The translations under genes and the position numbers were made by a program. From Lachnospiraceae bacterium (GTDB lineage: Bacteria; Bacillota_A; Clostridia; Lachnospirales; Lachnospiraceae): a stretch of 64,000 nt of DNA. The notes under the pieces are model-generated. The model saw only the letters and a program-made list of their open reading frames with translations, was not told the origin of the DNA and searched no databases. Shown one piece after another: positions 25,419-30,918 of this stretch; the stretch's first letter is position 1, and the number at the start of each line of letters is the position of its first letter. Location of the stretch: the NCBI GenBank assembly GCA_017626435.1, contig JAGAIR010000007.1, positions 186,001-250,000 on the forward strand. Reading direction: 5' to 3'.

Positions 25419-26252
25419 TCAGACACAATTTTTCTTTCTCCATTCATTGGGGGATAGATGCATGGCGTTTTTAAAAGCACGTGAGAAGTGAAACTGATTA
25501 CTGTAGCCAACAAGGGAAGCAATCTCTCCAATACTCATTTTAGTGGAACGAAGAAGTTCGCAGGATTTATTAAGGCGATAGGCGATTAGATAATCCTGCG
25601 GACTTTTTTGTGTTAATTTTTTAAAAAGTTTGCTAAAATAGCTTCTGCTTAGTCCAAGAGCAGCGGCCATATTGTCAATGGTAATATCTTCCATATAGTG
25701 TTCTTCTATAAAACCGATAGTAGACTGGATATAAAATTCCTGAATACTGTTATTCGGGATTTTACGTGTTTTGTCTGAACTCTGGATCAGAGCGTTCAAA
25801 AAGAGATAGGTATATCCCATACTTTCAGGGACAGGCATATCAGGATGTTCAACGATGTGACGGAGATATCCTGCCATTGAATCCCGGAGGGATGTTGAAA
25901 CGGCATTATAAATAGGTGAATTCTGTGTCAATCCGGCCTGACCGATATATTCTTTAGCTTTCAGCCCATCTACTTCAATCCACATATATTCCCATGGATC
26001 ATTTGCGTCAGCCATATAATGGATGAGCTTGTTTGGAACGATTAAAAATGCTTGTCCGGCATGAAGTCTGTACTCATGCACCTGGTTATTAACCTGAATA
26101 CGGAATACTCCATGGCCGGAGATAACATAATGGATCAGATAATGACTTCGCAAGGCAGGTCCGAAAGAATGATGAGGTCTGCATTTTTCGTATCCATACT
26201 GATAAATGATAACATCAAAAAAGTCATTGTTCAAAAGGGAGTGGGAAATCAT
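25419..26252 (-). CDS. AraC-family regulator of the alpha-galactoside module
   Basis: 277 residues. An N-terminal cupin-like sugar-sensing domain (HHSFGPALRSHYLIHYVISGHGVF) is followed by two C-terminal helix-turn-helix motifs (DITIDNMAAALGLSRSYFSKLFKK and SIGEIASLVGYSNQFHFSRAFK). The start at 26252 has AGGTG upstream and fits the promoter at 26278-26307; the frame is open to 26282, which lies inside that promoter. It is divergent from the EIIA/symporter/GH36 genes and is probably their sugar-responsive activator, acting at the dyad at 26355-26382 (inference). Confidence 0.9.
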   Translation of the reverse strand: MISHSLLNNDFFDVIIYQYGYEKCRPHHSFGPALRSHYLIHYVISGHGVFRIQVNNQVHEYRLHAGQAFLIVPNKLIHYMADANDPWEYMWIEVDGLKAKEYIGQAGLTQNSPIYNAVSTSLRDSMAGYLRHIVEHPDMPVPESMGYTYLFLNALIQSSDKTRKIPNNSIQEFYIQSTIGFIEEHYMEDITIDNMAAALGLSRSYFSKLFKKLTQKSPQDYLIAYRLNKSCELLRSTKMSIGEIASLVGYSNQFHFSRAFKNAMHLSPNEWRKKNCV

Positions 26253-26277
26253 ATTTTCACCTGCTTTCTTTTTAGGT

Positions 26278-26307
26278 ATCATATATCATTATGTGTCCTA
26301 ACGTCAA
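26278..26307 (-). promoter_or_regulatory. Promoter of the AraC-family regulator
   Basis: On the minus strand TTGACG (26307-26302), an 18-base spacer and TATGAT (26283-26278). It overlaps one arm of an inverted repeat TATGTGTC (26290-26297)/GACACATA (26323-26330), which could be an autoregulatory site. Confidence 0.6.
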
Positions 26308-26354
26308 CAAAAAACAATAAATGACACATACGGGTATAAAATAAAAAATATTGA

Positions 26355-26390
26355 ATCATGTAATTTAGGAAAAATACATGATAATATAAT
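26355..26390 (+). promoter_or_regulatory. Operator-like dyad and -10 of the alpha-galactoside operon
   Basis: ATCATGTA (26355-26362) is repeated in inverse as TACATGAT (26375-26382), 12 bases apart. A perfect TATAAT follows at 26385-26390. The -35 position reads AATTTA, a poor match, as expected of a promoter that needs an activator. Transcription would start about 105 bases before the first gene. Confidence 0.55.
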
Positions 26391-26501
26391 TACAGAACAG
26401 AAAAAAATGTAACATTTTACTAATTGTATGCGCAAAAAAGGCTGCAGACTTTGGGGACGCATAGCACATAAAATTATATATTTATGTAAAGGAGTGATTC
26501 C

Positions 26502-27212
26502 ATGATTACTGTAAAAATACAATATCATGACATGCGGGATGCGGCAGAAATTGTCAGGGAGATATCAAATTGTGCGTTTGATGTAAAGATAGTATGTGGT
26601 ACGGAGACAGTAAATGGGAAGTCTCTGTTAGGTGTAGTGAGTTTAGGCGTAGATAAAGAAATTGAAGTTCAGATGGACACCGATAATGTACAGAATGCCA
26701 AACCACTCATGGAAGTGTTAAGGAAATACTGTTTAAACGGTGCAAATGGAAAAAAGAAAAAAATGAATGAGGTATACAGTCCGTTGGATGGGAGGATTGC
26801 ATTGTTGTCAGAGGCCGGCGATGAAATTTTTGCCAAAGAGTTGTTGGGGAATGGAGTTGCAATCTATCCAGATAGTGAAAACGTATACAGTCCTGTTAAT
26901 GGAAAGATTTTCTTTATCTTCCCAACGCAAAATGCAATTGGTATTCAGACAGCTGACGGGACAGAAATTATGCTGCATGTAGGAACTGATGCCATTCAGA
27001 GAAATCAAGGGAAAGATTTTGATATGCAGGTGAAGGAAGGACAGGAGGTGAAAACGGGAGATCTGCTCCTTTCTTTTAACAGGAAAGAGCTAGAAGGTAA
27101 AGGCTATGATACAGTGACTTTTCTATTGTTTATTAATAAAAAAATGACTCAGCTGCAGATTCTCCGTGGTGGGAATGTGAAGAAGGGTGAAAAGATTATA
27201 GAGATGGTATAA
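26502..27212 (+). CDS. Crh-like domain fused to an EIIA(Glc)-type domain
   Basis: 236 residues. Residues about 1-75 align with HPr. The Ser-46 region is kept (GKSLLGVVSLG, Ser41), but the phospho-His position is Asp10 in HDMRDAAE, as in Crh-type proteins that lack His15. Residues about 88-236 form an EIIA-glucose barrel. The phospho-acceptor His159 is kept (MLHVGTDAI), but the partner His 15 residues earlier is Asn144 (PTQNAIGI). No EIIB or EIIC is nearby; a GPH symporter without a IIA domain follows after 48 bases. I infer a regulator of that symporter, equivalent to a detached LacS/RafP-type tail, rather than a sugar-phosphorylating PTS component. GGAG lies before the ATG. Confidence 0.85.
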   Translation: MITVKIQYHDMRDAAEIVREISNCAFDVKIVCGTETVNGKSLLGVVSLGVDKEIEVQMDTDNVQNAKPLMEVLRKYCLNGANGKKKKMNEVYSPLDGRIALLSEAGDEIFAKELLGNGVAIYPDSENVYSPVNGKIFFIFPTQNAIGIQTADGTEIMLHVGTDAIQRNQGKDFDMQVKEGQEVKTGDLLLSFNRKELEGKGYDTVTFLLFINKKMTQLQILRGGNVKKGEKIIEMV

Positions 27213-27260
27213 CAGCTGGGGATGTTTTAAGACCGCAGGGGCGGCAGAAATGAGGCAAAA

Positions 27261-28652
27261 ATGAAATTAAAATTAAGGGAAAAACTCTCATATGGGTTGG
27301 GGGCATTGGGGAAAGACATGGTATGTGGATTGATTTTTACTTATGCTATGATATATTTTACAGATGTTTTGAAAATATCAGCATCATTTGTAGGAAGTCT
27401 GTTTTTCTTCGCAAAATTCTGGGATGCAGTCAATGACTTAGGGATGGGAATGATTGTGGACAACACAAGGACCCGATGGGGAAAATTCCGGCCATGGCTG
27501 GCGATCGGCACTTTGGTAAATGCCGTTGTATTTGTTTGTCTGTTTACGAACTGGGGGCTTTCCGGAACAGCACTGTATGTATTTGCGGCAGTGATGTATA
27601 TACTTTGGGGGATGACTTATACCATTATGGATATTCCGTATTGGTCCATGCTTCCTAATCTGACAGATGACAAGAGGGAAAGAGAAAAGCTCTCTGTGAT
27701 TCCCAGAATCTTTGCATCTATTGGTGGTTCTCTGATTGTCGGCGGCTTTGGTCTGCAGATCATTGATTTTATTGGAAAAGGGAATGCACAAAAGGGATAT
27801 ACGGGATTTGCCTGGCTGATCGCAATTATATTTGTCGTAACCATTGGTATCACAGTATTTAATGTAAAATCTGCTGATAGGGTAGAAACATCACAGACTG
27901 AAAAAACATCGGCAAAGCAGATGCTCTATATTATCAGACAGAACGATCAGCTTTTGGTTGCGATTGGTGTGATTTTGACCTTCAATCTTGCAGTGCAGAT
28001 TATGAATGGTGTGTCTACATATTATTTTATATACGTAGCGGGCAGCAAAGGAATGTTCTCTGTTTTTACAATGTTTGCAGGTTTTGCAGAAATCGCAGGG
28101 CTGTTCCTGTTTCCTAAGCTGGTGAAAAGATTCAACAGAACATCTGTATATTTTATGGCATGCCTGACTCCTGTTATTGGATTGGCTCTGCTATTTGTAA
28201 CAGGATATCTCTGTCCGCAGAATGCGGTATTAACGGCAGTGGCAGGTATTTTAGTAAAATTGGGTTCGGGACTTCATCTGGGAACAGCAACTGTTGTCTT
28301 AGCTGATGTTGTTGATTATGGCGAGTATAAATTTGGCAGCAGAAATGAATCTGTGACGTTTTCCATTCAGACGTTGATGGTGAAATTTGCTTCTGCAATG
28401 GGAGCACTTCTGACAGGTGCCGCCCTTGATCTGACTGGGTATATTCCAAATGCTGTCCAGAGTGCAGGCACACTTATGGGAATGAGAGTGATAATGGTTT
28501 TGATTCCAGCTCTGTTCACTGTTATCAGCTTTGTTGTCTATAAAAAGTGTTTTAAACTAAATGGAGATTACTATGAACATATTATGAATATTTTAACTTT
28601 ACGAAAAAGCGGAGTGAAAGAATCTGCTCAAATAAAGGAGCAAAGAGTATAG
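27261..28652 (+). CDS. GPH-family (MelB-like) sugar:cation symporter
   Basis: 463 residues with about 12 TM segments. Family landmarks are LSYGLGALGKDMVCG at the N-terminus, FFAKFWDAVNDLGMGMIVDNTRTRWGKFRPWL with the cation and sugar-site Asp residues, and later DVVDYGEYKFGSRNESVTFS. The C-terminus ends soon after the last helix, with no IIA domain. It probably imports melibiose, raffinose or related alpha-galactosides for the GH36 enzyme encoded 40 bases downstream. The solute is inferred from neighbours, not from the sequence alone. Confidence 0.9.
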   Translation: MKLKLREKLSYGLGALGKDMVCGLIFTYAMIYFTDVLKISASFVGSLFFFAKFWDAVNDLGMGMIVDNTRTRWGKFRPWLAIGTLVNAVVFVCLFTNWGLSGTALYVFAAVMYILWGMTYTIMDIPYWSMLPNLTDDKREREKLSVIPRIFASIGGSLIVGGFGLQIIDFIGKGNAQKGYTGFAWLIAIIFVVTIGITVFNVKSADRVETSQTEKTSAKQMLYIIRQNDQLLVAIGVILTFNLAVQIMNGVSTYYFIYVAGSKGMFSVFTMFAGFAEIAGLFLFPKLVKRFNRTSVYFMACLTPVIGLALLFVTGYLCPQNAVLTAVAGILVKLGSGLHLGTATVVLADVVDYGEYKFGSRNESVTFSIQTLMVKFASAMGALLTGAALDLTGYIPNAVQSAGTLMGMRVIMVLIPALFTVISFVVYKKCFKLNGDYYEHIMNILTLRKSGVKESAQIKEQRV

Positions 28653-28692: not shown

Positions 28693-30918
28693 ATGTCAAT
28701 TATTTTTCATAAAACCAGCAAGACTTTTCATTTATACAATAATAAGATCAGCTATATATTTATGATATTAAGAAATGGCCAGCTGGGTCAGCTTTATTTT
28801 GGAGAGCGTATCCATGACAGAGAGGATTTTGGTTATCTACTGGAAATACAGGATCGTCCGATGGCGGCATGTGCCTATGAAGAAAACCGGAGTTTTTCAC
28901 TGGAGCACATAAAGCAGGAATATCCGTCCTATGGAACGGGTGATATGCGTTATCCTGCTTTTACTATTGCGCAGGAAAATGGAAGCCGGATTTCTGATTT
29001 TGTATATTCGGGATATCATATTTTTGCTGGGAAACCAAAGTTGCCCGGATTACCGGCAACTTATGTGGAGCAGGAAGCCGAAGCGGATTCTCTGGAAGTC
29101 TATCTGGAGGACGAGCTGACTGATACAAGAATGACATTGCGCTATTCTATTTTTAATGACATGGCTTTGATCAGCAGAAATGTAAGGTTTGAACAGAAGG
29201 GAGAAACATCTGTAACACTGGAACGCGCCATGAGCCTGAGTATAGACCTGCCAGATAAAAACTATGAAATGATTGAATTGACCGGTGCATGGAGCCGGGA
29301 GCGTTATATAAAGTCAAGAAAGTTGGAGCATGGGATACAGTCTGTCTACAGCCTTCGGGGATGCAGTAGTGCCAATTACAATCCTTTTATTGCGCTGAAA
29401 AGACCTGAGACCACAGAAAACAGTGGTGAAGTCATAGGATTCAGTCTTGTATACAGTGGTAATTTTCTTGCACAGACAGAGGTGGATACGTATGATGTTA
29501 CCCGTGTTACTCTTGGCATCCATCCTGAGAATTTTTCGTGGCCCCTTGCAAAGGGAGAAAGTTTTGAAACTCCTGAGGCTGTCATGGTTTACTCGAACAA
29601 TGGTCTGAATGGCATGAGTCAGATTTTCCACAAACTGTATCAGAAAAGGCTGGCAAGAGGAACCTGGAGGGACAGGGAACGCCCGATTCTCATTAACAAT
29701 TGGGAAGCTACTTATTTTGATTTCAACGAAGAAAAGATCTTACAGATTGCAGAAACAGCACAAAAAACGGGAATAGAACTGTTTGTTTTGGATGATGGCT
29801 GGTTTGGCAAAAGAAATGATGACACAAGTTCTTTAGGTGACTGGTATGTAAATTTGGAGAAATTGCCAAACGGGATTGCAGGGCTGGCAAAAAAAGTGGA
29901 ACAGCTGGGGATTCGATTTGGTCTATGGATAGAGCCAGAAATGGTAAATAAGGATAGTGACCTTTACCGGAATCATCCGGACTGGGTGTTGGCTACGCCG
30001 GGGCGGAGAATGTCTCATGGCAGAAATCAATATGTTCTGGATTTTTCCAGAGAAGAAGTAGTGGATGGGATTTTCAGACAACTGGAAAAAATCTTTGCTG
30101 ATGCACCGATTTCTTATATTAAATGGGATATGAACCGAAGTATGACAGAAGTATATTCCCGGGCAGTATCCCCAAAGGAGCAGGGAATGGTGATGCATAA
30201 ATATATTCTTGGTGTATATCGGTTGTATGAAAAGCTGATTGAAAGATTTCCTGAAATACTGTTTGAGTCCTGTGCCAGTGGTGGATCCCGGTTTGATCCA
30301 GGCATGCTATACTATGCGCCGCAGTGTTGGACTTCCGATGACACGGATGCCATAGAGCGGCTGAAAATCCAATATGGGACTTCTCTGGCTTATCCGATCA
30401 GCAGCATGGGAGCTCATGTTTCTGCCGTACCAAATCATCAGCTGTTGCGGAAGACACCATTAACAACGAGAGGAAATGTAGCGTGTTTTGGCGCATTTGG
30501 TTATGAGCTCGATATTACAAAAATGTCGGAAGAAGAAATGGAGGTAATCAGGTGTCAGGTTTCTTTCGTGAAAGAATACCGGAGTCTGCTTCAGTATGGC
30601 ACATTTTATCGACTCCTGAGTCCATTTGAAGGCAATGTGACAGCGTGGATGATAGTAAGTAGAGACCAGAAGAAGGCTCTTGTTGGCTATTACCGTGTAC
30701 TACAACATGTCAATGATGCTTATCACAGAATTCGTCTTCAGGGACTGAATGAAAACTTTTGTTATCATGTATCCATTTTGGAAAATGAATTTTATGGGGA
30801 TGAATTAATGCGTGCCGGATTGATTGTTTCCGATTCTTCCTCTGGAGAAAATCATGAAAAATATGATGGTACAAATGGAGATTACCAATCCAGAATTTAT
30901 GAGTTGGCTGCTGTCTAG
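28693..30918 (+). CDS. GH36 alpha-galactosidase
   Basis: 741 residues, the usual size for tetrameric GH36 enzymes. The N-terminal beta-sandwich precedes a TIM barrel with VLDDGWFGKRNDD and GLWIEPEMVN. The nucleophile is Asp479 in YIKWDMNRS; CASGGSRFD follows, with the acid/base Asp549 in TSDDTDAIERL. A beta-sandwich closes the C-terminus. There is no signal peptide, so it acts in the cytoplasm on imported alpha-galactosides. It is the last gene of the module and is followed by a terminator at 30985-31022. GAGG seven bases before the ATG supports the start. Confidence 0.95.
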   Translation: MSIIFHKTSKTFHLYNNKISYIFMILRNGQLGQLYFGERIHDREDFGYLLEIQDRPMAACAYEENRSFSLEHIKQEYPSYGTGDMRYPAFTIAQENGSRISDFVYSGYHIFAGKPKLPGLPATYVEQEAEADSLEVYLEDELTDTRMTLRYSIFNDMALISRNVRFEQKGETSVTLERAMSLSIDLPDKNYEMIELTGAWSRERYIKSRKLEHGIQSVYSLRGCSSANYNPFIALKRPETTENSGEVIGFSLVYSGNFLAQTEVDTYDVTRVTLGIHPENFSWPLAKGESFETPEAVMVYSNNGLNGMSQIFHKLYQKRLARGTWRDRERPILINNWEATYFDFNEEKILQIAETAQKTGIELFVLDDGWFGKRNDDTSSLGDWYVNLEKLPNGIAGLAKKVEQLGIRFGLWIEPEMVNKDSDLYRNHPDWVLATPGRRMSHGRNQYVLDFSREEVVDGIFRQLEKIFADAPISYIKWDMNRSMTEVYSRAVSPKEQGMVMHKYILGVYRLYEKLIERFPEILFESCASGGSRFDPGMLYYAPQCWTSDDTDAIERLKIQYGTSLAYPISSMGAHVSAVPNHQLLRKTPLTTRGNVACFGAFGYELDITKMSEEEMEVIRCQVSFVKEYRSLLQYGTFYRLLSPFEGNVTAWMIVSRDQKKALVGYYRVLQHVNDAYHRIRLQGLNENFCYHVSILENEFYGDELMRAGLIVSDSSSGENHEKYDGTNGDYQSRIYELAAV

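Follow-up and report, generated by a model that had tools for sequence, protein, structure and literature searches.

An HPr-like/EIIA fusion encoded beside a MelB-type symporter in Lachnospiraceae, a candidate detached regulator of alpha-galactoside uptake

A 236-residue protein encoded on a Lachnospiraceae contig joins an HPr-like domain, which has no phospho-histidine, to a Glc-type EIIA domain, which retains its phospho-acceptor histidine and has an asparagine in place of the phosphoryl-transfer histidine. The gene lies in the window (the whole stretch of 64,000 nucleotides that was analysed) directly ahead of a gene for a MelB-type symporter. On balance, we think it somewhat probable that the fusion acts in trans as a regulator dedicated to this adjacent alpha-galactoside symporter, with HPr(His~P) acting on His159 as one input and, probably, HPr kinase acting on Ser41 as the other; binding, inhibition and both phosphorylations are what we infer. 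If this is true, an importer would be switched by two metabolic signals via one detached regulator, and the fusion would combine, in 236 residues and in a major gut family, the control of sugar entry through HPr kinase known from Gram-positive bacteria with the Gram-negative one, inducer exclusion by EIIA. The main interest lies in the exact coupling between the gain of the HPr domain and the loss of the EIIA histidine, and in a family-wide class of HPr proteins with the serine alone. The features of the locus are as follows.

25419..26282 (-), AraC-family regulator, divergent, likely the operon regulator (Pfam HTH_AraC/AraC_binding)
26502..27212 (+), HPr-like/EIIA fusion gene, 236 aa (Pfam, structure model and fold match)
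26502..26735 (+), HPr-fold domain, residues 1-78, phospho-His loop shortened (PF00381; model, fold match, alignment)
26622..26624 (+), Ser41 codon, equivalent of HPr Ser46, in VNGKSLLGVVSLG (invariant in the 5-sequence alignment)
26769..27209 (+), Glc-type EIIA domain, residues 90-236
26931..26933 (+), Asn144 codon, position of the phosphoryl-transfer His, E. coli His75 (EIIA alignment)
26976..26978 (+), His159 codon, phospho-acceptor, E. coli His90 (EIIA alignment)
27261..28652 (+), MelB-type GPH symporter, 463 aa, without a IIA domain (NCBIfam MelB equivalog)
28693..30918 (+), GH36 alpha-galactosidase, 741 aa (Pfam Melibiase, 561 bits, with GH36 N- and C-terminal domains)

The gene order is thus divergent AraC, fusion, MelB-type symporter, GH36 alpha-galactosidase. 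The region upstream of the fusion (26283-26501) has no cre-like site when up to one mismatch is allowed, and the whole window holds 12 such sites against 17.8 expected. Promoter-like sites are at chance level (20 against 17.3 expected), and terminator-like sites number 8 against 3.4 expected.

The initial annotation had assigned the first 75 residues to HPr, and both the PF00381 match and the match of the structure model to solved folds, which include the Crh chains 1zvv and 1mo1, give residues 1-78 an HPr fold. The model of the whole fusion has a pTM of 0.65 and is an unreliable guide to domain orientation. The Ser46 motif is retained around Ser41 (VNGKSLLGVVSLG), as had been proposed, and Asp10, Ser41, Asn144 and His159 are all invariant in the alignment of five fusion members. 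Asp10 had also been read as a replacement of the phospho-histidine. The histidine is indeed missing, since an HPr phosphocarrier bears phospho-His15 in a GIHARP loop and the fusion has no His there; however, the loop is shortened and not simply substituted. Aligned with canonical and Crh-like HPrs of two Lachnospiraceae genomes, it is about five residues shorter, the five being removed where GIHAR stands. Because the spacing from helix to Ser is kept, Asp10 falls just ahead of helix 1, at the place of HPr His15, with the loop shortened. Judged from its sequence, the HPr part is incapable of carrying phosphate on a histidine, as the phospho-His is absent on either reading of the alignment. Conservation within this part is higher in the Ser41 segment (80%) than in residues 1-35 (40%), and both domains of the fusion are under purifying selection. 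HPr docking uses basic residues of helix 1, and in the alignment these are apparently not retained in the fusion. The description of the protein as Crh-like holds in so far as the fusion, like Bacillus Crh, has the HPr fold with the Ser46 motif and without the phospho-His. We do not adopt it in the strict sense because the Crh-like proteins compared (from the two genomes G001 and G105) keep a full-length loop; unlike the free-standing Crh, the fusion has the loop shortened and is joined to EIIA.

The EIIA part matches the PF00358/TIGR00830 profiles above the curated cut-off, and its fold agrees. In E. coli EIIA-Glc, His90 receives the phosphate and His75 is needed for passing it to EIIB. The phospho-acceptor (His159 in the window) is present in all 54 aligned EIIA rows, whereas at the position of the second histidine (144) all 6 fusion rows carry Asn and all 48 of the other Lachnospiraceae EIIA domains carry His, which bears out the earlier reading of His159 as kept and its partner as replaced by Asn144. 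The six fusion rows are the window, the locus L001 described below and the database clusters P0002-P0005, of which the L001 and P0002 proteins are 94% identical and P0005 has an odd stretch around its His that may be a sequencing fault; the other rows are one per fetched locus, these 48 loci being part of 119 listed places without the fusion. The transfer histidine is thus replaced by Asn in the window and in every other fusion row, and therefore the fusion should take up phosphate without passing it on. The same counts mean that the loss of transfer coincides with the gain of the HPr-like domain.

The fusion is rare. A search of a 5.8-billion-protein database, which reaches only relatives with common short exact words, gave five full-length clusters, and genome contigs gave one further fusion locus (L001), from a Roseburia MAG of water deer caecum. 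Here the order is that of the window, with divergent AraC, fusion and symporter; the symporter is 92% identical to that of the window over the 173 residues present, and the AraC neighbour, in the same place, is 74% identical. The whole fusion was found in one of 397 sampled Lachnospiraceae genomes (E ≤ 1e-30; only seven candidates were scored where a genome had more) and in one of 62 genomes of the genus (E ≤ 1e-20). No relatives were found on viral contigs or in PHROGs. The fusion query matches 736 plasmid records, mostly through the EIIA part among the 20 listed; the only place covering more than 80% of the query, on a Niallia plasmid, proved to be a PTS permease of 634 aa and not a fusion. 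The gene context comes from two loci, the window and L001, as the clusters P0003-P0005 are proteins without context. In both the fusion directly precedes the MelB-type symporter, and in neither is an EIIB or EIIC gene seen next to it. The pairing suggested earlier thus recurs wherever context is visible, but two loci are too few to say that the fusion always neighbours a GPH symporter without IIA.

The next gene had been described as a GPH symporter without the C-terminal IIA domain, and it is one. The protein scores 607.4 bits against the NCBIfam MelB equivalog, above the cut-off of 456, and 371 bits against a solved melibiose carrier chain; over its 463 aa only MFS matches are found, and the LacS-type C-terminal IIA is absent. 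Residues D19, D55, N58, D59, T121 and D124 are all present, and we take D19 and D124 to be sugar residues of MelB. The Na+ ligands of MelB include D55, N58, D59 and T121, which the window symporter keeps (PMC10942615). Asp438, Arg441 and Ile445 of the MelB tail are proposed there as possible EIIA-binding positions; in our alignment Asp438 corresponds to the conserved D436, Arg441 is replaced by E439, and Ile445 lies just past the end of the alignment. Symporters of this kind are found at 18 places in 15 of the 397 genomes (E ≤ 1e-90); we inspected 17 regions of 7.6-15 kb each, the eighteenth place being that of L001. In all 17 a blastp search with the window EIIA left the symporter ORF without a IIA match, so that close relatives of the symporter also lack it. 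As a separate observation, a GPH symporter of 607 aa from another genome (L067:5677-7500, G055) has, as assembled, a C-terminal domain that resembles pyridoxamine oxidase and not IIA.

Ranked second in similarity within the family sample is a place in genome G105, by inference Luxibacter massiliensis. There a plain EIIA with both histidines and no HPr lies 19 bp before a symporter 76% identical to that of the window, followed by GH36, and an AraC protein (33% identical) stands at the opposite end of the cluster. The likeness of the C-terminal tails of the two symporters is about what their 76% overall identity would lead one to expect, and was not used as evidence. Together with the fusions of the window and L001, this plain EIIA agrees with the earlier proposal that a GPH symporter has a detached regulatory subunit encoded next to it. 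Such pairing is uncommon. An EIIA match occurs in one of the 17 symporter regions, that of Luxibacter, which makes it a property of this small symporter clade; as the other 16 are without an EIIA match, control by an EIIA encoded next door is no general feature of such symporters. GH36 matches occur in 9 of the 17. From the other side, among the 48 EIIA loci without the fusion, inspected with flanks up to about 1.5 kb, one adjoins such a symporter, again the Luxibacter one, and in a class-wide sample the symporter is found in 4 of 391 genomes, Luxibacter included (E ≤ 1e-120). The simplest history would start with a plain EIIA beside the symporter, to which an HPr-like domain was later added while the His at position 144 was lost.

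EIIA-Glc binds the Salmonella MelB and lowers its affinity for galactosides while leaving Na+ binding unchanged, and the authors propose that MelB is trapped in a low-affinity inward-facing state (PMC10942615). Given this precedent and the retained Na+ ligands, we prefer inhibition by the unphosphorylated EIIA and relief by HPr(His~P). As in the enteric bacteria E. coli and Salmonella, a separate EIIA of the Glc family accompanies a MelB-type galactoside symporter with its Na+ and sugar residues kept; unlike the enteric EIIA-Glc, which is a shared PTS component, the EIIA here is encoded with the symporter, has no transfer His and bears an added HPr-like domain. We suggest that the unphosphorylated EIIA part would bind the cytoplasmic face of the symporter and keep its affinity low, as in inducer exclusion. 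At low use of PTS sugars HPr(His~P) would be abundant, His159 would become phosphorylated and the symporter would be released. With Asn144 in place of the transfer His the phosphate would stay, so that the EIIA part would sense PTS load and supply no EIIB. The HPr-like half would serve as a second input, HPr kinase phosphorylating Ser41 at high levels of glycolytic intermediates, and P-Ser41 would then alter either the interaction between EIIA and the symporter or the access of HPr(His~P).

LacS and RafP had been put forward as the precedent, RafP having its IIA domain fused to a GPH symporter. The pairing of a GPH symporter with a PTS IIA domain is indeed common to these proteins and the present locus, but MelB with EIIA-Glc appears from this comparison to be the better precedent, with LacS second, and unlike in LacS the IIA here is a separate protein bearing an HPr-like domain. 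As a detached counterpart of the LacS IIA, a phosphorylated EIIA would bind or stimulate the symporter (exchange mode). LacS is a GPH symporter bearing a tethered EIIA-like domain phosphorylated by HPr (PMC10710835), and the transporter family and the IIA family are the same here; yet the symporter is of the MelB type, for which it is the dephosphorylated EIIA-Glc that inhibits sugar binding (PMC10942615), and no tether links IIA and symporter, and we regard stimulation of this kind as unlikely. The fusion might instead be an autoinhibited switch. The pseudo-HPr would then sit on the EIIA face of its own chain, in the manner in which HPr docks on IIA-Glc, and keep away both HPr(His~P) and the symporter; formation of P-Ser41 by HPr kinase would free the EIIA to shut the symporter. 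A pseudo-HPr without phospho-His is here fused to its natural docking partner and the Ser41 segment is better conserved than residues 1-35 (80% against 40%), but the basic docking residues are apparently not kept and the model, with its pTM of 0.65, is not a reliable guide to how the domains are oriented, and such a switch seems to us rather improbable.

P-Ser HPr and Crh act with CcpA, and the fusion keeps the patch of the Ser46 helix and finds CcpA complexes of P-Ser HPr or Crh among its fold matches. Its partner could accordingly be CcpA, or the AraC regulator whose divergent gene adjoins it at both loci, with the PTS or HPr-kinase signal carried to transcription. Against this, the plain EIIA of Luxibacter adjoins the symporter while the AraC gene is at the other end of the cluster, and no cre-like site lies upstream of the fusion, which leaves a transcriptional partner with a small chance. 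That the protein is an ordinary EIIA feeding a distant EIIBC permease in trans, with the symporter an incidental neighbour, would agree with the intact EIIA fold and phospho-His. It is very improbable in view of the transfer His missing from 6 of 6 fusion rows, the Glc-type EIIB unmatched in the draft genome of L001, and the recurrence of the symporter at two fusion loci and beside the plain EIIA of Luxibacter.

In that draft genome (G001) the fusion supplies the one EIIA_1 domain, and no match to Glc-type PTS_EIIB, the single EIIB type searched, was found. It has two EI-type matches, one HPr kinase and seven HPr matches, which include the fusion and two below the cut-off. In Luxibacter the counts are five EIIA_1, four EIIB and a single HPr kinase. 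B. subtilis, which has an HPr kinase, gave no match as the control of the kinase search, of which the positives alone were used. The kinase and phosphodonor for both proposed inputs therefore exist in relatives, as the EI-type, HPr and HPr-kinase genes of the two genomes indicate.

The proteins behind the weak HPr matches of G001 and G105 are 75-80 aa long and free-standing. They share with the fusion the short loop and the Ser motif, here DAKS[IL][LM]G, but are unfused.

L081:3548-3784, L083:3512-3739, L085:205-435 and L091-L120, free HPr-like proteins with no phospho-His loop and with the Ser46 motif

Of 200 Lachnospiraceae genomes, 197 gave a match at E ≤ 1e-8, and 191 at 1e-20, to a profile of this small family built from six proteins (five from G001 and G105, one from G146); in a phylum sample it found 10 of 249 genomes at 1e-20, at least three of these from the Lachnospiraceae sample. 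All 30 of the fetched sequences, a biased sample as the best-scoring ones, keep the Ser and are without the HAR of the loop. Most (23 of 30) belong to one highly conserved type that starts MKTVQISLNS or MKTVKISLNS, and an mtaB-like gene lies within 1.5 kb of all 23 copies of it and of none of the seven others. Where such proteins carry a name in database records, it is 'HPr family phosphocarrier protein' or 'HPr-like phosphotransfer protein', so that a near-universal protein of the Lachnospiraceae carries a 'phosphocarrier' name which its sequence does not permit.

A tree of HPr domains (48 rows, 78 columns, bootstrap not settled) places the fusion between the small family and canonical HPr, and the profile scores are equivocal (small-family against canonical, 49.6 and 39.7 bits for the window, 44.1 and 45.4 for P0003). 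Neither gives clear support for a descent of the fusion HPr from the small family or from canonical HPr. From the sequences, the fusion domain appears close in form to the Ser-only class, the tree not placing it inside. The reverse arrangement also exists: near an EI gene, both G105 and G001 encode an HPr with GIHARPAG and with Arg for Ser46 (DAKRIFG; L070:1489-1746, L071:1432-1746), which is His-only. A second EI-linked HPr of G001 retains Ser at position 46, and the other HPrs of the two genomes keep it. It is a tentative and rather doubtful suggestion that Lachnospiraceae split the jobs of HPr between His-only carriers and family-wide Ser-only domains read by HPr kinase, the fusion being such a Ser-only domain on a dead-end EIIA and hence a two-input (P-Ser/P-His) switch gating a non-PTS symporter. 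Crh-like proteins with Glu or Asp for His15 (GLEARPIA, GMDGRPIA; L069:978-1226, L076:1489-1746) coexist with the short Ser-only proteins.

Like FruB/FPr and the IIA-HPr(-EI) proteins, the fusion has IIA and HPr in one chain, and IIA-HPr fusions appear in a 2008 survey as multiphosphoryl transfer proteins (PMC2405797). Unlike these, which are phosphoryl-transfer proteins of PTS or dihydroxyacetone kinase clusters, it has an HPr without phospho-His and no adjacent PTS permease gene. We recognised no description of the fusion or of the Ser-only class in the open-access literature, searched by titles and the starts of abstracts, with most subscription papers outside its scope. Elsewhere in the window, an ORF at 13042-14547 matches the internalin J model far under the cut-off (174 against 1700 bits) and is probably a leucine-rich-repeat surface protein.
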